Shown: positions 1,544 to 20,039 of the stretch, piece by piece | How the letters are laid out: every line of letters starts with the position of its first letter | How positions within the stretch are numbered: the first letter of the stretch is position 1 | DNA from: Lysobacter sp. K5869 | Lineage (GTDB): Bacteria > Pseudomonadota > Gammaproteobacteria > Xanthomonadales > Xanthomonadaceae | DNA length: 64,000 nt | NCBI RefSeq assembly: GCF_018847975.1 | Contig: NZ_CP072597.1 | Location: 3,449,001 to 3,513,000, forward strand | Reading direction: 5' to 3' | Made by a program: the position numbers and the translations under genes | The notes under the pieces: model-generated | Databases searched by the model: none | Told to the model about the DNA's origin: nothing | What the model saw: only the letters and a program-made list of their open reading frames with translations

Positions 1544-2266
1544 ATGTCCAGAACATCCGACCTCAGCCGCCGCATGGCCTGCCTGCTGACCCGCCATCAG
1601 GCCTTGCACGATCCCGAGCGCGAGCCGCGCAACCGCCTGCGTTGGCTGCCAGAGCTGCGGCAATGGCAGGCGCGCCGGCTGGAAGCCAGTTTCGACCGGT
1701 TCCTGCGCGATCCGCGCCGGCGTCCGGCGGCGCAGTTCTTCCTCAGCGACGTCTACAACGACCGCGACTTCAGCCGCCGCGACGCCGACATCGCGCGGGT
1801 GTTGCCGATGATGCAGAAGCTGCTGCCCGGGCCGTTGCTGGCGACGGTGGCCGATGCGATCGAGCTGGGTTTGCTGACCCAAGCCTTCGACCTGCGCATC
1901 AGCGAACGCCTGCACGAGCTGGCGCCGCGCCGGCGCAAGCTCGACGGCGCGCTGTACGCGCAGGCGTATCGCGCCTGCGGGCTGCCGCGGCTGCGCGAGC
2001 ATCAGATCGTGTTGATCGAACACGTCGGCTTGGGGCTGGGCAAGGCGGTGCGGATGCCCGGCATCCTGACCTTGCTCAAGCTCTCGCGCGGACCGGCCAA
2101 GGCGGCCGGGCTCTCGGAATTGCAGGGGTTTTTGGAGCGCGGCTTCGCCGCGTTCGCGCAGTTGGGCGATGTGCGCGAGTTCATCGCCGAGATCGGTTCG
2201 GACGAGCGCGAGGTGGCGCAGCGTCTGTTCGACGGCGACGAGGATCCGTTTCCGGATTTGGATTAG
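1544..2266 (+). CDS. Conserved hypothetical protein (240 aa)
   Basis: Soluble protein with no signal peptide or membrane segment. It is rich in Arg and Leu and looks largely helical. A conserved-looking block reads FFLSDVYNDRDFSRRD, followed by a leucine-rich stretch (VLPMMQKLLPGPLLATVADAIELGLL). I take it for one of the uncharacterised proteins common in Xanthomonadaceae; no catalytic motif is visible. I chose the ATG at 1544 over the in-frame one at 1490 because the upstream 18 residues are low quality and overlap the 3' side of the inverted-repeat region. Function unknown. Confidence 0.7.
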   Translation: MSRTSDLSRRMACLLTRHQALHDPEREPRNRLRWLPELRQWQARRLEASFDRFLRDPRRRPAAQFFLSDVYNDRDFSRRDADIARVLPMMQKLLPGPLLATVADAIELGLLTQAFDLRISERLHELAPRRRKLDGALYAQAYRACGLPRLREHQIVLIEHVGLGLGKAVRMPGILTLLKLSRGPAKAAGLSELQGFLERGFAAFAQLGDVREFIAEIGSDEREVAQRLFDGDEDPFPDLD

Positions 2267-2302
2267 CGCCCCGGGCTCGGCGTCCGCGAATGCCGCGTCC
2301 GC

Positions 2303-2396
2303 CCCCTGTAGGAGCGGCGCGAGCCGCGACCGCGACACCACGCCTACGGCGCAACCTGCAACCCCGCGGTCGCGGCTCACGCCGCTCCTACAGGGG
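2303..2396. repeat. REP-like palindrome pair, family A
   Basis: Two inverted copies of a roughly 30-bp unit (core TGTAGGAGCGGCGCGAGCC, then GCGACCGCG) form a long hairpin between two genes that end toward each other. The same unit recurs at about 4.0-4.2, 56.3-56.5 and 61.5-61.8 kb. Confidence 0.85.
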
Positions 2397-2408
2397 CTTG
2401 CGTTCGGC

Positions 2409-2717
2409 TCAGCCCAGCGCGCGCACGAACGCGGGCAGATTCTCGCGCCACTGCGCGCTGCGGATCTTGTCGAAGTACAGCCGCTGCCCGCTCGGCTGCG
2501 CGTCGACGTGGGCCAGGTCGGCCAGGCGCTCGGTCGGGCCGCCGAGCGCGGCGAACAGGACGAAATCGAGTCGTTCGCGCGCGTCGCCGCGGCTCAGCTG
2601 CCAGACGATGCGGTCGCGCTCGACGTAGAACAGTTCGTCGGCGCCGAACTCGCCCTCGATCCGCCAGCCTTCGCGTTCCAGCGCGTCGCGCAGTTCGGTC
2701 AGGCGGGCGCGGGTCAT
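2409..2717 (-). CDS. Conserved hypothetical protein (102 aa)
   Basis: Small soluble protein starting MTRARLTELRDALEREGWRI, with the pattern of a short alpha/beta domain that includes the strand-like segments DELFYVERDRIVWQLSR and LDFVLFAAL. It has no cysteines, signal peptide or membrane segment. It lies 5 bp downstream of the PHA-system gene on the same strand, so the two are probably one transcript. I do not recognise a family with certainty. Confidence 0.65.
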   Translation of the reverse strand: MTRARLTELRDALEREGWRIEGEFGADELFYVERDRIVWQLSRGDARERLDFVLFAALGGPTERLADLAHVDAQPSGQRLYFDKIRSAQWRENLPAFVRALG

Positions 2718-2721
2718 GCGC

Positions 2722-2997
2722 TTACTTGAACTTCTCTTCCAGCACGCGGCGGATCTCGGCCTCGATCGGCCCCTTCATCGCGCCGAGCAGGAACCCAAGC
2801 TGCGCGGTCACGCGCAGATGCTCCGGGGCCACCGCGATCTTGCCGTCGACGCCGCTGCGGGCGAAGTTGAGCACGTCGCCGTCCCAGTTGTATTCGACGT
2901 CGAAGCGTTCGGCGAGCTTCTTGGCCACCTCTTCGACGGCTTTGCGCGCCTTGGCCGGGGCCAGCGAATGCGGGTGGCGGATATCGATGCTGGACAT
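2722..2997 (-). CDS. Polyhydroxyalkanoic acid system family protein (91 aa)
   Basis: Small protein of the family found with polyhydroxyalkanoate granule genes (PHA_gran_rgn type). It reads MSSIDIRHPHSLAPAKARKA at the start, with the family pattern of an N-terminal helix (KARKAVEEVAKKLAERF), a central beta region (VEYNWDGDVLNFARSGVDGKIAV) and a C-terminal helix (IEAEIRRVLEEKF). The upstream in-frame extension is poor, so the start is the ATG at 2997, which has an AGGGAG-like Shine-Dalgarno sequence ahead of it. Exact molecular role is not established; no PHA synthase is in this window. Confidence 0.75.
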   Translation of the reverse strand: MSSIDIRHPHSLAPAKARKAVEEVAKKLAERFDVEYNWDGDVLNFARSGVDGKIAVAPEHLRVTAQLGFLLGAMKGPIEAEIRRVLEEKFK

Positions 2998-3151
2998 GTC
3001 TGGGTCTCCCTGGAAGCCGGCTATTGTGCGGGCAGGGACGGGCGCATCCAAGCCCGCCGCGGCGTCGGCGATAGCGATGCCGGACACGCCGCGCGCGCCT
3101 GGGTTCGCAGCAGGGTGTGCCTGGCGCTGCAACCTGCTAGATTCCCGCCGG

Positions 3152-3955
3152 GTGAGCGTCCTTAAACTGCGATACCCCAACCGCGAGCACGGCGACCTGG
3201 CGTTGAAGCCGGGCGTGCACGCCATCGGCCGCGATTCGGCCGGCCGCACCGTGCTGGTCGAGGACTCGGACGCGGCCATCGCGCAGTTCAGCGTCGACCG
3301 CCGCGGCGTGTGGCTGCAGGTGCGCGACAGCCTGCACGGGCTGCACGTCAACGGCCGCCCGGTGCGGCGCATGGCGATGCTGCGGCCCGGCGACGCGATC
3401 TTCATCGACGGCGTCGAGCTGCTGCTGGTGGCCGACAAGCCCGAGCCGGCGCCGCCGTTCGGGGTCGAGATTCCGGCCGATTCGCGCATGGTCGTGCGCG
3501 GCGTCGGCGGCGTGCATCACGGCCGCTGCTACACCCTGGAACAGCCCAAGGTGATCGGCCGCGCCGGCGACTGCGACATCCGCATCAACGAACCGGCCTT
3601 CGCCGATCGCCACGCGCGGCTGGAAGCGCACGCCGACGGCGTGGTGCTGCGCGACGTGGGTTCGCTCGACGGCAGCGTGGTCAACGGCCAGCCGGTGCGG
3701 CATGCGCTGCTCAAGCCGGGCGATCAGTTGCTGCTCGACGGCCAGCACCGTTTCGTGATCGAAGCGCCGACCCGGCGGTTGAGCGCGGCCGATGCGCTGC
3801 AGGCGCAGTTGGCGCAGGAGCAGGCGGCCAACGAAGACAAGGCCACGCCGCCTTCGGCGCTGCCCTCGTCGGTGCGGCGCATGCCGTGGCTGTTGCTGGC
3901 GGCGGTGGTGATGGCGGGGTTGTTGGGGTTGTTGCTGCTTTACGGGGTGCGGTAA
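3152..3955 (+). CDS. FHA domain-containing membrane-anchored protein (267 aa)
   Basis: Starts with GTG at 3152. The N-terminal half (about residues 1-95) looks like a degenerate FHA domain (GVHAIGRDSAG, then DSLHGLHVNGRPV). The second, residues about 105-200, is a clear FHA phosphopeptide-binding domain with KVIGRAGDCDIRI, ADRHARLE and LDGSVVNGQPV. A Gln/Ala-rich linker leads to a single C-terminal transmembrane helix (WLLLAAVVMAGLLGLLLLYG), so the FHA domains probably face the cytoplasm. It stands between repeats without an obvious kinase partner. The role is inferred as phosphothreonine-dependent scaffolding or signalling. Confidence 0.8.
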   Translation: MSVLKLRYPNREHGDLALKPGVHAIGRDSAGRTVLVEDSDAAIAQFSVDRRGVWLQVRDSLHGLHVNGRPVRRMAMLRPGDAIFIDGVELLLVADKPEPAPPFGVEIPADSRMVVRGVGGVHHGRCYTLEQPKVIGRAGDCDIRINEPAFADRHARLEAHADGVVLRDVGSLDGSVVNGQPVRHALLKPGDQLLLDGQHRFVIEAPTRRLSAADALQAQLAQEQAANEDKATPPSALPSSVRRMPWLLLAAVVMAGLLGLLLLYGVR

Positions 3956-15502: not shown

Positions 15503-16513
15503 ATGCACGATCTGAATGACCTGTACTACTTCGCGATGGTCGTGGACCACGCCGGTTTCGCCGCCGCCGAGCGCGCGCTGGGCATTCCCAAGTCGCGTCT
15601 GAGCCGGCGCATCAGCCAGTTGGAAACCGATCTGGGCGTGCGTTTGCTGCAGCGTTCCACCCGCCGCTTCGCGGTCACCGAAGTCGGCAACAGCGTGTAT
15701 CGCCACGCCCAATCGATGCTGGCCGAGGCGCAGGCCGCGCGCGAAGTCGTCGACCGCCTCAGCGCCGAGCCGCGCGGCGTGATCCGCGTCAGCGTGCCGG
15801 TCGGTCTGGCTCAGCAGCACATTCCGCGGCTGTTGCCCGAGTTCCTGGCCAAGTACCCGCAGGTGCGCGTGCAACTGCACGTCAGCAACCGCCGCGTCGA
15901 CATCATCAACGAAGGCGTGGACGTGGCCTTGCGCGTGCGCTCCAAGCTCGACGACGACGGCAGCCTGGTGATGCGCAGCTTCGGCCAGATCCAGGAATTG
16001 CTGGTCGCCAGCCCGAAGTACCTCAACCGCATGGGCCGCCCGACCAACCCGGACGAATTGTCCGAGCACGTCACCCTGAGCATCAGCGAAGACGACGCGC
16101 GCCAGCGCTGGGAACTGCACGGTCCCGACGGCGAAGTGCGCAAGGTCGAGCTCAAGCCGCGGGTGATGGGTTTCGATTTCCCGATGCTGATGGCGCTGGC
16201 CGAGCAGGGCGTGGGCATCACCCTGCTGCCGGAAACCGTGTGCGCCGAAGCGGTGCGCCGCGGCGAGCTGGAAGTGGTGCTGCCGAACTGGCGCCTGCCG
16301 CAAGGCATCTTCCACGCCGTGTTCGCCTCGCGCCGCGGCCTGCTGCCGGCGGTGCGGGTGTTCATCGACTTCCTCGCCGAAAAGGCGCCGTCGCTGGTCG
16401 AATCCGCGCGCCTGCAATGCAGCGACATCAAGGGCCAGCCGTGCCCCGACAGCATCGCCGGCAAGGCCGCGAAGAAGGCCGACAAGAGCCCCAACATCGC
16501 CGCCCAGGCGTGA
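15503..16513 (+). CDS. LysR-family transcriptional regulator
   Basis: DNA-binding winged helix-turn-helix at residues about 1-60 (LYYFAMVVDHAGFAAAERALGIPKSRLSRRISQLE), then a periplasmic-binding-protein-like effector domain with RVSVPVGLAQQHIPRLLPEFLAKYPQVRVQLHV. At 336 aa it is about 35 residues longer than usual, ending in a Lys/Ala-rich tail (AGKAAKKADKSPNIAAQA). It is divergent from azoR and probably activates it in response to quinone- or azo-type compounds, as inferred from position. The GC-rich hairpin at 16522-16546 closes the gene. Confidence 0.9.
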   Translation: MHDLNDLYYFAMVVDHAGFAAAERALGIPKSRLSRRISQLETDLGVRLLQRSTRRFAVTEVGNSVYRHAQSMLAEAQAAREVVDRLSAEPRGVIRVSVPVGLAQQHIPRLLPEFLAKYPQVRVQLHVSNRRVDIINEGVDVALRVRSKLDDDGSLVMRSFGQIQELLVASPKYLNRMGRPTNPDELSEHVTLSISEDDARQRWELHGPDGEVRKVELKPRVMGFDFPMLMALAEQGVGITLLPETVCAEAVRRGELEVVLPNWRLPQGIFHAVFASRRGLLPAVRVFIDFLAEKAPSLVESARLQCSDIKGQPCPDSIAGKAAKKADKSPNIAAQA

Positions 16514-16521
16514 GACAATGC

Positions 16522-16546
16522 CGCGCCCGGCGCAAGGCCGGGCGCG
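16522..16546 (+). terminator. GC-rich hairpin after the LysR gene
   Basis: A 10-bp perfect stem (CGCGCCCGGC and complement) with a 5-nt loop, 9 bp after the stop. There is no T tract, so termination is only likely. Confidence 0.45.
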
Positions 16547-16598
16547 TCGCCGCGCAGGGCGGCGGCCGGGTCGGACGATCCGGCGACGATGCGTTTAC

Positions 16599-16639
16599 GG
16601 AGAGATGGCCGAGTGGTTTAAGGCAGCGGTCTTGAAAAC
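16599..16639 (+). pseudogene. 5' half of a split tRNA-Ser(UGA)
   Basis: These bases are the acceptor 5' strand, D-arm, anticodon 5' stem and anticodon loop of tRNA-Ser (GGAGAGATGGCCGAGTGG at the start), ending in CTTGAAAAC. The sequence then leaves tRNA structure. The missing 3' half is at 18101-18149; joining the two gives a complete 90-nt tRNA with a paired GGAGAGA/TCTCTCC acceptor stem and anticodon TGA. Confidence 0.9.
16631..16639 (+). repeat. Left 9-bp direct repeat CTTGAAAAC (putative attL core)
   Basis: Identical to 18092-18100 and lying in the anticodon loop of the interrupted tRNA-Ser. The same nonamer also occurs in the anticodon loop of the intact tRNA at 16787-16795. Confidence 0.75.
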
Positions 16640-16754
16640 TTATGTTCAGGCGGTGCGCGAGCAGAAAAAACAAAGTAAAAACAACGTGTTAGTGTGTTCG
16701 CATTGGCGCTGTGGCTTGCGCCGTTTAGCGGATTCCTAGCACGTCACGAAATAC

Positions 16755-16844
16755 GGTGGGTTGGCCGAGCGGTTGAAGGCACTAGTCTTGAAAACTAGCA
16801 AGGGGGTGACCCCTTCCAGGGTTCGAATCCCTGACCCACCGCCA
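16755..16844 (+). tRNA. tRNA-Ser(UGA), intact, inside the insertion
   Basis: Complete cloverleaf with a GGTGGGT/ACCCACC acceptor stem, encoded CCA end, seven-base anticodon loop CTTGAAA (anticodon TGA) closed by the CTAGT/ACTAG stem, a long variable arm (GCAAGGGGGTGACCCCTTCC) and a GGTTCGAATCC T-loop. It differs in nearly every stem from the interrupted tRNA-Ser around it, so it is not a recent copy. It reads UCA-type serine codons and probably replaces the broken host gene. Confidence 0.95.
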
Positions 16845-16880
16845 TCAAAATAGCGCAGCGCCGTAACACAGGGAGCGTGC

Positions 16881-17786
16881 ATGCAGCCCAAGACCATCGC
16901 CGAACAGCTCTTCTTCACCACGGTGCGAATTGACACCGTTGCGGCGAATGGCGCTCAGGGTTCCGGTACGGGCTTCTTCTTCAATCACAAGATTGGCGGC
17001 AACGAGTATCTGTTCGTCGCAACGAACAAGCATGTCGTGATGGGCATGAGAGAGGGGCGCTTTTCGTTCCTGAAACAGAAGGATGGGCAACCCACCCTTG
17101 GCGACGGGTTCAATCTGCACATGGGGCAGCAGGACTGGCCGAAGATGTGGTTTGGTCACCCAGACGCGAATATCGACATTGCCGTTTGTCCGCTGGCGCC
17201 ACTGCTTGAATTTGTGAAGAAGCAGCACGGCACGGACTTGTTCCTACGGGCCGTGAATACAAGCATGATTCCAACGCCGCAGCAGGTGACGGAACTGGAT
17301 GCGGTGGAGTCCGTGACGTTCATCGGCTACCCGAATGGTGTCTGGGACAGCAAGAACCTTCTGCCAGTTGCGCGCCGGGGTACTACTGCCAGTCCTATCG
17401 AAGTGGATTTTGAGGGCACGCCGCGTTTTCTCATTGATGCGTCGGTGTTCGGTGGGTCTAGTGGCAGCCCGGTCTTCATTCTGAATCACGGATCATGGGC
17501 GACCAAGGAAGGCGGCCTCGTAGCTGGCACTCGGTTCTACTTCGTCGGCGTGATCGCCGCAGTGTTCTTCCGCACCCATCTGAACCAGATCATTCCGGTG
17601 CCGATTCCCACACAGGTTCAGCCGATGGCGCAGCAACAAGAGATGATCGACCTCGGAATCGTGTTCAAGGCACGTACCGTTGTCGAGACCATCGAAGCAT
17701 GCCTCAAAGCGCACAACGTCGATACGTCGGCACCTGCACCAATACCAGCACCGCAAGCCGCGCCCGATCCAGCACCGCAGGCATAG
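16881..17786 (+). CDS. Trypsin-like serine peptidase, cargo of the tRNA-Ser insertion (301 aa)
   Basis: Chymotrypsin-fold protease of the Trypsin_2 type. The triad is visible: H51 in VATNKHVVMG, D99 in DANIDIAVCPL and S194 in FGGSSGSPVF. There is no signal peptide or membrane helix, so it should act in the cytoplasm, unlike secreted HtrA relatives. No PDZ domain follows; the C-terminus is Pro/Ala-rich ([19 protein letters not shown]). Base composition is lower in GC than the flanks and codon choice differs, which fits acquisition with the insert. Cytoplasmic trypsin-like peptidases occur in several phage-defence modules, but no partner gene is present here, so the function is open. Confidence 0.85.
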   Translation: MQPKTIAEQLFFTTVRIDTVAANGAQGSGTGFFFNHKIGGNEYLFVATNKHVVMGMREGRFSFLKQKDGQPTLGDGFNLHMGQQDWPKMWFGHPDANIDIAVCPLAPLLEFVKKQHGTDLFLRAVNTSMIPTPQQVTELDAVESVTFIGYPNGVWDSKNLLPVARRGTTASPIEVDFEGTPRFLIDASVFGGSSGSPVFILNHGSWATKEGGLVAGTRFYFVGVIAAVFFRTHLNQIIPVPIPTQVQPMAQQQEMIDLGIVFKARTVVETIEACLKAHNVDTSAPAPIPAPQAAPDPAPQA

Positions 17787-18091
17787 TAGCTGGAGGGCTG
17801 CGCGCAACGCTCGCGCCTGCTCGCAATGGGCTAGACCGCAGCCAGCCCAACCGACCTAACCACAAGGGCAGCAATCGGTTAGCTGGCAAGCCCGCCTAAT
17901 TCCGGGCTTGCTGTTCCTTGCTCGCAGGCAAGCGCGCCGCTACAGGCCGCGCAACGGTGCCGCCAGTAGCAATCTAGGCTAAGTTACGATAAGCCACGCC
18001 AAACATGCAACGACGATAAGCCGTTGTTTTACAAAGGCGTGGCGGGCTAAACAAAGCAGCGGAAAGCTAGGTAAAAGCAGCCTCCGCAAAA
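17787..18091. other. Non-coding right end of the insertion
   Basis: No convincing gene. It holds a 9-bp perfect hairpin (GCAAGCCCG/CGGGCTTGC) near 17888-17913 that could end the protease transcript. Two direct copies of ACGATAAGCC lie at 17986-17995 and 18013-18022, and CCACGCC/GGCGTGG bracket the second. Such repeats next to an attachment core resemble recombinase arm sites, though this is only suggestive. Confidence 0.5.
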
Positions 18092-18149
18092 CTTGAAAAC
18101 CGCCGAAGGGTCAAACCTTCCGTGGGTTCGAATCCCACTCTCTCCGCCA
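18092..18149 (+). pseudogene. 3' half of the split tRNA-Ser(UGA), with right repeat CTTGAAAAC
   Basis: Begins with the second CTTGAAAAC (18092-18100) and continues through the anticodon 3' stem, variable arm (CGAAGGGTCAAACCTTCCG), T-arm (GTGGGTTCGAATCCCAC), TCTCTCC acceptor strand, discriminator G and encoded CCA. It pairs exactly with the 5' half at 16599-16639. Confidence 0.9.
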
Positions 18150-18227
18150 CCTAGTCCGAAACGAAGATCGCGCGGCGGACGGTAGTTCGCCGCAGGTTCT
18201 GGCGCGCGCGGGAACCCGCGTTGCATC

Positions 18228-18294: not shown

Positions 18295-19695
18295 TCACAT
18301 CGTCTTCGGGTTTTGCTGCTGCTGCGCCTGCTGCTGTGCCTGCGCGTTGGGCGGCGTTTGGCCGCTCGGCGCCTGTTGCAGCAGTTCGCTGGTCGGCGGC
18401 GCTTCCTTATGGGCCTCGACGACGGCCCGGAAGCCTTCGGTCTTGCCGGAAACGACGATCTTGTCGCCGACCACATCGGCCTTGGCGAGTTGATCGACCG
18501 TGCCGATCCCGCCTTGCTTTTGAGCGGCGACCGTCGCTTCCAAGGCCTTGTGGTCGGAGACGCTCGGCGGCAACTGTTTGCGGATTTCGCCGTACAGCGC
18601 CTGGGTGTCCGGGTGCGCGCGCGACAGGTCGATCGAGGTCGACGACGAGGACGGCGAGCTTCCGGGAGCGGACGCGAGCGACGGGACGGAGAGGCCCGGC
18701 GCGATGCTGATCGACGGCGTTTGCGCGCGCGCCGCGATCCTGGCCGCGTCTTGCACCTCGTCCAGGTTGCGGGTCGCCGCGCTGGCGTTCTTGGCTACGC
18801 CCGCGACGATTCCGTGGTCGGCGCGTTCGTCCAGCAACGGCTTGCGGCAATCGCTCGCCGGATGCTTGGGGTCGGCATCCGGCGCCAGCCGGGCTTCCAG
18901 TTTGGCGTGCCAGCCGACCTGAGCGTTCCAGGCCTCATGCTGCTTCGCCGCGATGGTCGGATCTTTGATGCGCTGCTCGCGCGCGTCGGTGAGCGCTTGG
19001 CTCGGCAAGCGATCGGTGTCGACGGTGCTGTCGTACAGCTTGTCCGCTTCGCGGTTGTAGATGCGGATCGGGACCGGATGGTCCTTGGTCTGAGCCTGCA
19101 CGTGATCGAGATTGGCAGGCAGATCCTGGTAGACCTGATCGCGGATGTTCGGCGGAACGAAACGGCCGAAGCCGTTGCGGTCGAGCGAACCGGTGAAGCG
19201 CGCGTCCACGCCCAACTCGCTTTCCAGGCGATGGGTGGCCAGCGCGCGGATCTCGACGTTGTAGCCGGCCTTTTGCAGCCCCTCCACGAGTTCGACCGCC
19301 TTGGGGCCGCTGCCCAAGGTGGTGTCGATGACCAGGTTCTTGCGATCGCCGATGGCTTTATCGCGCAATTCCTTGGCCCACTGGCTGGCGTCCTTGTGGG
19401 TGTCGTCGGCCCAGTTGTACGGCGAAGCCTTGCGGAACTCGTCGACTTTCGGATGGAAGTCGCGCATCGCGTCGGGATCGACCACGATGGCGTTCATGCC
19501 GCCGCCGAGATCTTGTTTCGCGCGCTCCGCCACGCCGCTTTTGCCCGCGCCGGGTTGGCCGGCGAGGATGATCGCCGTGGGATTCTGGCCTTCGGGGACG
19601 GAGGGGATGCTGTCGTAGTTGACGCTCGGCAGGACGCGCCGCTCGAATTCTTCCTTATGGGTCTTGTCGTCCAGCGGCGGGGCGAGAGGCCTCAT
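18295..19695 (-). CDS. Zeta-type kinase toxin with XVIPCD-like C-terminus (466 aa), putative X-T4SS effector
   Basis: N-terminal zeta-toxin kinase domain (about residues 1-230): Walker A GQPGAGKS at 46-53, DPDAMRDFHP, DASQWAKELRD, LVIDTTLGSG and RALATHRLESELGVDARF. Zeta toxins phosphorylate UDP-N-acetylglucosamine and block wall synthesis in the cytoplasm. A Ser-rich linker leads to residues about 358-437 (HPDTQALYGEIRKQLP ... GDKIVVSG ... FRAVVEAHKEAPP), which match the pattern of the Xanthomonadales VirD4-interacting domain. A Gln-rich tail (QAQQQAQQQQ) follows, typical of these effectors. The start overlaps the immunity gene by ATGA. Likely delivered to rival bacteria by a type IV secretion system encoded elsewhere. 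Confidence 0.85.
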   Translation of the reverse strand: MRPLAPPLDDKTHKEEFERRVLPSVNYDSIPSVPEGQNPTAIILAGQPGAGKSGVAERAKQDLGGGMNAIVVDPDAMRDFHPKVDEFRKASPYNWADDTHKDASQWAKELRDKAIGDRKNLVIDTTLGSGPKAVELVEGLQKAGYNVEIRALATHRLESELGVDARFTGSLDRNGFGRFVPPNIRDQVYQDLPANLDHVQAQTKDHPVPIRIYNREADKLYDSTVDTDRLPSQALTDAREQRIKDPTIAAKQHEAWNAQVGWHAKLEARLAPDADPKHPASDCRKPLLDERADHGIVAGVAKNASAATRNLDEVQDAARIAARAQTPSISIAPGLSVPSLASAPGSSPSSSSTSIDLSRAHPDTQALYGEIRKQLPPSVSDHKALEATVAAQKQGGIGTVDQLAKADVVGDKIVVSGKTEGFRAVVEAHKEAPPTSELLQQAPSGQTPPNAQAQQQAQQQQNPKTM

Positions 19696-20039
19696 GCTTG
19701 CGCCTCCCGCTTGAGGTCGAAGTGGTTCCACAGCTCATTCAAATCGGCCAAGCCGCCGTTCTTGGAGCGCGCCTTGAACATCAGATCGAGCTTGGCGTCG
19801 GCGCGCTGCAGCGCCTGCGCGTCGCCGCCGGCTTCGGCCGCGTTGCGCTCCGCGCGCGCTTCGGAGATGAAGCTGCTGAGAGCGTCTTCCAGCGCCGACA
19901 CCGCGGTCTCGAACGGCGGGCTGCCCTTGGGCTGGGCCGCGGCATCGCGCAGCGTGGCCGCGAGCGCGTCGAGTCGATCCGGATACTCTTTCAGCAATTC
20001 CCGCAAGGCCTGCGGGACGGGGGGCGACAGGGTCGTCAT
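19692..20039 (-). CDS. Putative immunity protein for zeta toxin 1 (115 aa)
   Basis: Small acidic, helical protein (MTTLSPPVPQALRELLKEYP) without signal peptide or membrane segment, so it should protect in the cytoplasm, where a zeta kinase acts. It stands directly upstream of the toxin gene with an ATGA overlap, which ensures antidote is made first. The paralogue at 22957 has exactly the same length and the shared pattern LSPPVPQ, LLK-YPD, PPFETA, ALEDLLS-FI, ARIERADDKLNLMF-ARS. I do not recognise the family, and it is longer than typical epsilon antitoxins. The ATG at 20039 is chosen because the similarity to the paralogue begins there. Confidence 0.75.
   Translation of the reverse strand: MTTLSPPVPQALRELLKEYPDRLDALAATLRDAAAQPKGSPPFETAVSALEDALSSFISEARAERNAAEAGGDAQALQRADAKLDLMFKARSKNGGLADLNELWNHFDLKREAQA

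Follow-up and report, generated by a model that had tools for sequence, protein, structure and literature searches.

Insertion Site in the Host tRNA-Ser(UGA) Gene

What kind of insertion breaks a tRNA-Ser(UGA) gene in its anticodon loop while carrying another, complete gene of the same anticodon, and on which of the two does the host then depend? This question is raised by a 64,000-nucleotide stretch of the chromosome of Lysobacter sp. K5869 (hereafter, the window). Our analysis indicates, with a probability of about 0.88, that the insert belongs, as a miniature without an integrase, to a family of gene-swapping, site-specific integrative islands of Pseudomonadota.

The host gene was split by an insert of 1,461 bp (16640–18100). 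Its 5′ part (16599–16639, +) ends with the left core, CTTGAAAAC (16631–16639, +), which consists of the seven nucleotides of the anticodon loop and two stem nucleotides; the break point lies directly after ...GGT-CTTGAAAAC. The right core (18092–18100, +) is a direct repeat of the left one and is followed by the 3′ part of the gene (18101–18149, +), beginning with CGCCG. Joined to each other, the two parts formed a 90-nt tRNA-Ser(tga) with CCA according to ARAGORN. All of this agrees with a previous sequence-only reading of the locus, which had proposed a split tRNA-Ser, a repeat-bounded insert of 1.46 kb, and a crossover in the anticodon loop. The same reading held that the host gene was destroyed and not rebuilt: ARAGORN identified no tRNA at either junction, only after joining the outer flanks, and the TTATG... 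following the left core cannot pair with the stem. Precise joining of the flanks, performed in silico, would heal the host gene, as had also been suggested. A third copy of CTTGAAAAC was present inside the carried tRNA, and no further copies were found in the 64 kb on either strand. The G+C content was 57% in the insert versus 70% in the window.

Empty sites, which the sequence-only reading had named for comparison, were found: the joined tRNA had an uninterrupted BLAST match in all 19 other genomes of the genus, and in 6 of the 19 the match also ran through the whole 160-nt left flank of the query. An assembly error or a chance resemblance at one or both junctions could be suspected from the single assembly available for this genome; the probability of this is negligible, as it is already contradicted by the genome being one contig (5.97 Mb) and by eight further assemblies that show this left junction too. 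Chance is excluded because relatives share the architecture and the joined tRNA is uninterrupted in the 19 congeners. A group I intron was also considered and rejected: an Rfam scan of the window at gathering scores gave only the carried tRNA, and the direct repeat bounding the insert and the tyrosine integrase of full relatives are further points against it. Nor does the insert bring a classic attP with a tRNA part regenerating the target: its tRNA stands apart as a complete gene.

The host flank immediately downstream of the split gene, outside the insert, encodes a protein with a Zeta_toxin domain (18295–19731, −; Pfam E 7.4e-48), a possible toxin–antitoxin gene.

Relatives of the Insert and Breaks at the Same Core

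The same anatomy was found in eight other genomes (L098, L096, L097, L214, L228, L229, L230, and L231), giving nine genomes with the window; L095 is the tenth island. A search with the carried peptidase revealed two more split tRNA-Ser genes (L082/L098 and L085/L096), L097 was found by BLAST with a 129-nt left end, and L095 by a left-end pattern search of IMG/VR. The CTTGAAAAC core was located at the left junction in all ten loci measured. Nine of the ten carried tRNAs lie directly behind a broken tRNA-Ser 5′ half, while L095 is inserted at the same core behind the end of a Pseudomonas-type prophage. The Pseudomonas-type prophages in L117 (12381) and L126 (12304) end at CTTGAAAAC, followed by the tRNA-Ser(UGA) 3′ half; L095 is therefore a second insertion at that core, and other phages share this attachment site.

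Breaks were also searched for independently of the insert, with a pattern in which the 5′ half of tRNA-Ser runs up to the end of the core and the next base is anything except C; it is blind to classic restoring insertions, because those keep the C. The pattern matched in 5 of 297 genomes of the window's family and in 2 of 399 genomes of the order to which the L096 genome belongs, and these seven include the window and L096. An intact tRNA-Ser(UGA) was present 7–116 bp inside the break, on the same strand, in all seven (7/7). Wherever both ends were available (5/5 cases), the flanks joined in silico healed to tRNA-Ser(tga).

In IMG/VR, the break pattern gave four loci. Two of them (L247 and L248) were rejected as complete phage tRNA-Ser genes. 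The other two, L249 (3856–3890, −) and L250 (6583–6617, −), are tRNA-Ser(UGA) breaks at the same core, and the 3.9 kb and 6.6 kb, respectively, examined downstream of them contain no replacement tRNA. They may belong to another island type or have their tRNA further along, and they count against a universal rule linking break and replacement.

Searches with the left end itself gave few relatives. The pattern CTTGAAAACTTAYGTTCAG, with at most one mismatch, matched in 4 of 398 genomes of the phylum, one of them our own, and its reversed control gave one match; G1004 (an exact match), G812, and G677 were dropped as chance, their 3-kb loci containing neither a tRNA nor the conserved left end. BLAST with the 129-nt left end matched in 5 of 369 genomes of the class: our own, G608 (a real island, L097), and G339, G408, and G468, whose short matches were dropped, ARAGORN finding no tRNA at these loci. 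Among 20 genomes of the order of G608, none matched the left end except G608. Left-end searches of plasmids and phages returned tRNA genes only or nothing, and the second type of left end described below (type II) had no match in IMG/VR. By design, a left-junction search cannot find islands retaining only the right end.

Carried tRNA-Ser(UGA) and Dependence of the Host

The carried tRNA gene (16755–16844, +) is intact and 90 nt long with CCA, as determined by ARAGORN, and it scored 59.3 bits in Rfam. The claim that it is a different tRNA with the same anticodon was borne out: in the five genomes where both are known, the carried tRNA and the healed host tRNA were 64–73% identical. Across all ten loci, the carried tRNAs shared 60–100% identity with each other, and those of the window, L098, and L228 were identical. 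Since it is identical in three hosts and unlike the healed host tRNA, the carried gene travels with the island. In the carried tRNA of L097 (9212–9299, −), CTTGAAATC replaces CTTGAAAAC, which might make it a poorer target for a second insertion.

In 10/10 loci, the carried gene is a tRNA-Ser(tga), the isotype of the target, and in all ten it lies at the left junction, oriented like the target gene. This agreement bears on another explanation, in which the tRNA serves mainly a different purpose, such as countering tRNA-cleaving defence or supplying codons, and replacement is a side effect that relaxes selection on the attP core. The candidate defence genes in the cargo slot, the discussion of phage tRNAs as anti-defence in PMC10865867, and the deviating anticodon loop region of the L097 tRNA (CTTGAAATC) would fit it; a general supply tRNA, however, need not match the isotype, site, and strand of its target, and we regard this explanation as unlikely.

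Under the gene-swapping reading, the host probably comes to depend on the tRNA of the island. The genome of Lysobacter sp. K5869 contained 52 Rfam tRNA matches, 11 of which were longer than 80 nt, as class II tRNAs are. The serine tRNAs among these 11 (10 fetched and 1 in the window) had the anticodons CGA, GCU, GGA, and UGA, and the carried copy was the sole UGA serine tRNA found in the genome; the search for another such gene, suggested by the sequence-only reading, found none. By the wobble rules, UCA should be read only by the anticodon UGA, from which we infer that tRNA-Ser(UGA) is essential.

Dependence was assessed with a pattern for the tRNA-Ser(UGA) 3′ part, run on the nine host genomes. 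It matched the carried gene in 9/9 genomes and no other intact tRNA-Ser(UGA) in any of the nine; one further match, in G1297, was judged by eye not to be a tRNA arm. The host's own 3′ part was present in five genomes (G000, G281, G299, G300, and G608) and was not found by the pattern in four: G097, which is only 86% complete, G183 and G1297, which are nearly one contig each, and G244, where the absence is limited by a contig end inside the integrase. The three genomes other than G244 contain the islands L214, L228, and L231; in the DNA searched there (stretches of 6.0, 17.9, and 17.8 kb), no partner of the broken acceptor stem was found. A diverged 3′ half would escape both the pattern and this search. 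The healed host tRNA of L098 has, by eye, an A–C mismatch in the acceptor stem, as expected for a gene no longer under selection.

Full Islands and Their Integrases

Islands with both ends had lengths of 8,165 bp (L096), 8,361 bp (L097), and 8,493 bp (L230), while the reduced ones with both ends were 1,461 bp (window) and 1,227 bp (L098) long. Cargo comes first in the gene order common to L096, L097, L229, and L230. It is followed by the DUF5681 protein, two proteins of 238 aa and 137 aa (the latter encoded on the other strand), a primase/helicase that varies in kind, an HTH protein, and, toward the right end, a tyrosine integrase with an arm-binding domain (cut by the contig end in L229). L095 encodes the same proteins, but its 137-aa protein follows directly after the cargo and no HTH match was found in it. 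A 112-aa protein precedes the DUF5681 protein in L095, L096, L229, and L230 and is missing from L097. Scans of selected L096 and L097 proteins against Pfam and PHROGs, and of five L230 proteins against Pfam, yielded integrase, HTH, primase/helicase, DUF5681, and Mer families and no capsid, tail, or terminase families.

The integrases of L095, L096, L097, and L230 were 54–85% identical to each other. None of four integrases from relatives had a tblastn match in the window at E 1e-3, in line with the sequence-only claim that no integrase lies inside the insert; a tyrosine integrase is encoded in L095, L096, L097, and L230 and, in cut form, in L229. In a large protein set, the L230 integrase had 1,718 relatives at E ≤ 1e-50 among 7,999 candidates scored; named relatives among the 120 matches listed include Stenotrophomonas, Pseudomonas, Xylella, and Cupriavidus. 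All 26 phage records and all 179 plasmid records matched were below 60% identity, the best among the matches listed being about 31% for phages and 37% for plasmids. The integrase search of E. coli genomes gave no DNA match.

An IMG/VR element, L100, has the classic structure, with a duplicated 3′ half and an intact tRNA, and its integrase was 59–71% identical to those of L095, L096, L097, and L230. Related integrases are thus seen in both the restoring and the replacing mode. It also lends something to the view that the insert is a decayed ordinary tRNA-restoring island, that is, the remains of a classic insertion followed by rearrangement. That view is already contradicted by the relatives and is highly improbable: the carried tRNA is complete, foreign, identical in three hosts, and unlike the host gene, and the same arrangement occurs in elements with an integrase and both ends.

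Cargo Genes

The only clear gene in the insert (16881–17786, +) encodes a 301-aa Trypsin_2 protein (Pfam E 5.2e-8; phrog_7688, E 7.7e-80) of the PADLOC family PDC-S45 (E 1.3e-98, residues 1–278 against positions 11–287 of the 293 in the model), a candidate anti-phage protein as predicted from these matches. The cargo slot adjoins the tRNA, and its contents vary among the islands. Relatives of the peptidase were encoded in L098 (81% identical) and L096 (75%), and another protein, of no assigned family, in L097 (225 aa) and L095 (267 aa). L228 carries a PDC-S35 TIR protein and a DUF2321 protein; in L231, a TIR protein that is, by eye, close to that of L228 stands beside a 319-aa protein. The cargo of L229 is a type II methyltransferase with a weak restriction-enzyme match, that of L230 is MerT and MerR, and that of L214 is a YfbU protein.

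Defining the family by the peptidase alone was tried and rejected: of the 8 peptidase relatives in genome contigs, only two (L082 and L085) are located within a split tRNA-Ser. The PDC-S45 family as such does not include the tRNA arrangement, because the DNA examined at the peptidase loci L083 (whose contig starts 117 bp before the peptidase gene), L084, and L086–L089 contains no such tRNA. Weaker relatives, with 27–41% identity, were found in 8 other genomes out of 297 of Xanthomonadaceae, and four of these loci scanned with ARAGORN had no tRNA. In IMG/VR, searches with the peptidase (4 loci) and with the other cargo protein (19 loci) led to one island only, on the contig of L095. The PDC-S45-like gene of L083 (118–966; 80% identical) stands beside tRNA-Cys and tRNA-Gly genes (1187–1260) and is perhaps cargo of islands at another tRNA.

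Reduced Copies

The window copy retains both ends, the tRNA, and the candidate defence protease gene. Past the cargo slot, a conserved segment (17817–17968, +) is common to relatives with other cargo: it was 87% identical to L096 over 153 columns and 82–87% identical to L228, L229, and L230 over 100–118 columns. The right end (17981–18091, +), with the conserved arm-like blocks AAGTTACGA... and ACAAAGGCGTGG.., resembles that of L097 (69% over 126 columns for 17981–18100, core included). These alignments are most simply read as a single internal deletion of ~7 kb, located between about 17969 and 17981, which would have taken the backbone and the integrase and left both ends. Since both ends are kept, the window form may still move in trans if a relative supplies the integrase. 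In L098, ~12 bp before the right core match those of the window and the right arm is absent, so this miniature is probably immobile.

Island sequence in L214, L228, and L231 ends after ~1.4–2.3 kb, where other genes begin; the tRNA end is kept, and there is neither a right core nor a host 3′ half. The genes beyond belong to the AA_kinase, ribosome recycling factor, and undecaprenyl-diphosphate-synthase families in L228 and to the MAPEG and LodA families in L214, and a nucleotide-sugar-dehydrogenase-like ORF (named by eye) follows in L231. The L214 remnant (1963–3350) comprises the left end, the tRNA, the YfbU gene, and a fragment of the 137-aa backbone gene; it is a candidate case of complete takeover of a tRNA gene by its host. 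In total, 5/9 islands were reduced, three of them to the tRNA end, a proportion that the left-junction search favors.

Left Ends and the Question of the Promoter

Alignment of seven left ends defined type I (window, L095–L098, L214, and L228), with TTAYGTTCAG beside the core (TTGCGTTAAG in L214) and the tRNA 93–116 bp past the core. In the window, it occupies 16640–16754 (+), where TTAYGTTCAG is followed by AGTAAAAACAACGTGTTA and a possible hairpin; these 115 nt are a probable attachment arm and leader. The hairpin is suggestive only: in RNAalifold, 3/16 pairs had both partners exchanged in one or more of the 7 sequences. Type II (L229, L230, and L231) has AGTTGTA beside the core, and the tRNA follows after 7 bp. 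In the left end of the Dechloromonas island (L085, 5763–5785), we found TTCAGACGGCAT, which looks like the Neisseria DNA uptake sequence in reverse complement; the likeness is probably due to chance, because other members differ there.

A simple sigma-70 scan of 16500–18200, which covered the left end and the region upstream of the host gene, recognized no promoter, so that it is geometry that argues for promoter capture. The main ground is type II, which leaves almost no room for an island promoter and therefore points to the promoter of the host gene.

Proposed Mechanism

Judging from the anatomy, the tyrosine integrase of a full relative would recombine the 9-bp attP core CTTGAAAAC with the host anticodon loop. 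Integration would split the single host tRNA-Ser(UGA) gene, as is observed here, without rebuilding it, and its function would pass to the complete tRNA-Ser(UGA) that the island carries on the same strand, close inside its left end. The host gene's promoter would probably drive this carried tRNA, with RNase P releasing it from the transcript, as the 7 bp between break and tRNA in type II suggest. To restore the host gene, excision would have to be exact, from one outer core to the other. A cell losing the tRNA end should die; the island would therefore be held like an addiction module, and its remainder may decay.

More broadly, these islands could be essential-gene swappers. Their carried tRNA would have little or no promoter of its own and be switched on only once it stands behind the promoter of the destroyed gene; survival would then select for orientation, site, and retention, even in one-cargo forms of 1.2–1.5 kb that are movable only in trans. 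The swap could become permanent, a core translation gene now being derived from a mobile element (G097, G183, and G1297). We advance this wider scheme tentatively, at somewhat less than even odds. The strongest parts are the link between break and replacement in 7/7 genome breaks and the nine genomes in which no intact tRNA-Ser(UGA) other than the carried one was found. Promoter capture with a permanent swap is the boldest part and is unproven.

Comparison with Known Systems

Tycheposons are tRNA-linked elements. No description of the present island family was found in the open-licence literature, judged by titles and the openings of abstracts. Among defence systems, the cargo protein corresponds to the phage-defence candidate PDC-S45 of PADLOC, matching its model over almost the full length; the islands differ from that family in the tRNA arrangement, and the defence activity is a prediction.

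With classic tRNA-targeting islands, the family shares the tyrosine integrase (in full relatives) and the anticodon-loop target. In the classic mode outlined in the Islander description (PMC4383910), the gene is regenerated by a tRNA fragment on the island, and the filters given there expect a tRNA with its own fragment, a length of at least 2 kb, and an integrase inside; as far as these filters go, they should miss the window insert. This suggests why island finders expecting a regenerated tRNA would overlook such insertions.

In Sinorhizobium meliloti, according to a discussion passage from 2024 (PMC11476347), an inactivated tRNA gene can be replaced by the isoacceptor gene of a phage-related sequence, the same outcome as proposed here; phiLM21-like prophages rebuild their tRNA targets, as stated in a passage of a 2025 paper (PMC12429752). 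These systems differ in being alphaproteobacterial prophages and islands at other tRNAs.

The principle of the swap is already known: it is the tRNA-dependent lysogeny of actinobacteriophages (PMC10865867, 2024). In that paper, this mode is characterized by a short core (8–17 bp, Table 2), no reconstruction, and a required cognate phage tRNA; actinobacteriophages (Fionnbharth, Gaia, and others) are listed, Lj965 of Lactobacillus is mentioned, and integrase relatives occur in both modes. There, Guerrero-Bustamante and Hatfull raise the questions of how common the mode is beyond actinobacteriophages and what connects it with classic, restoring integration. The islands resemble it in the 9-bp core, the lack of rebuilding, the carried tRNA matching the broken one, the tyrosine integrase of full relatives, and integrase relatives using the classic mode. 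The window copy falls outside the strict definition on two counts: it does not encode an integrase, and nothing about it indicates a phage. Unlike in actinobacteriophages, no phage structural genes were recognized among the scanned proteins, the tRNA is Ser UGA, and the hosts belong to another phylum; the islands' tRNA lies at the junction directly behind the host 5′ half, and there is a cargo slot, integrase-less miniatures, and an apparent permanent replacement in three genomes. We consider the non-phage cargo islands, the miniatures, the position of the tRNA, and the apparent permanent replacement to be new. The family suggests how a one-gene defence island can persist in a genome without a toxin–antitoxin pair and how a mobile tRNA gene can replace an essential one, and it offers a concrete test case: non-phage islands of Pseudomonadota whose integrase relatives use both modes and whose simple geometry suggests promoter capture.
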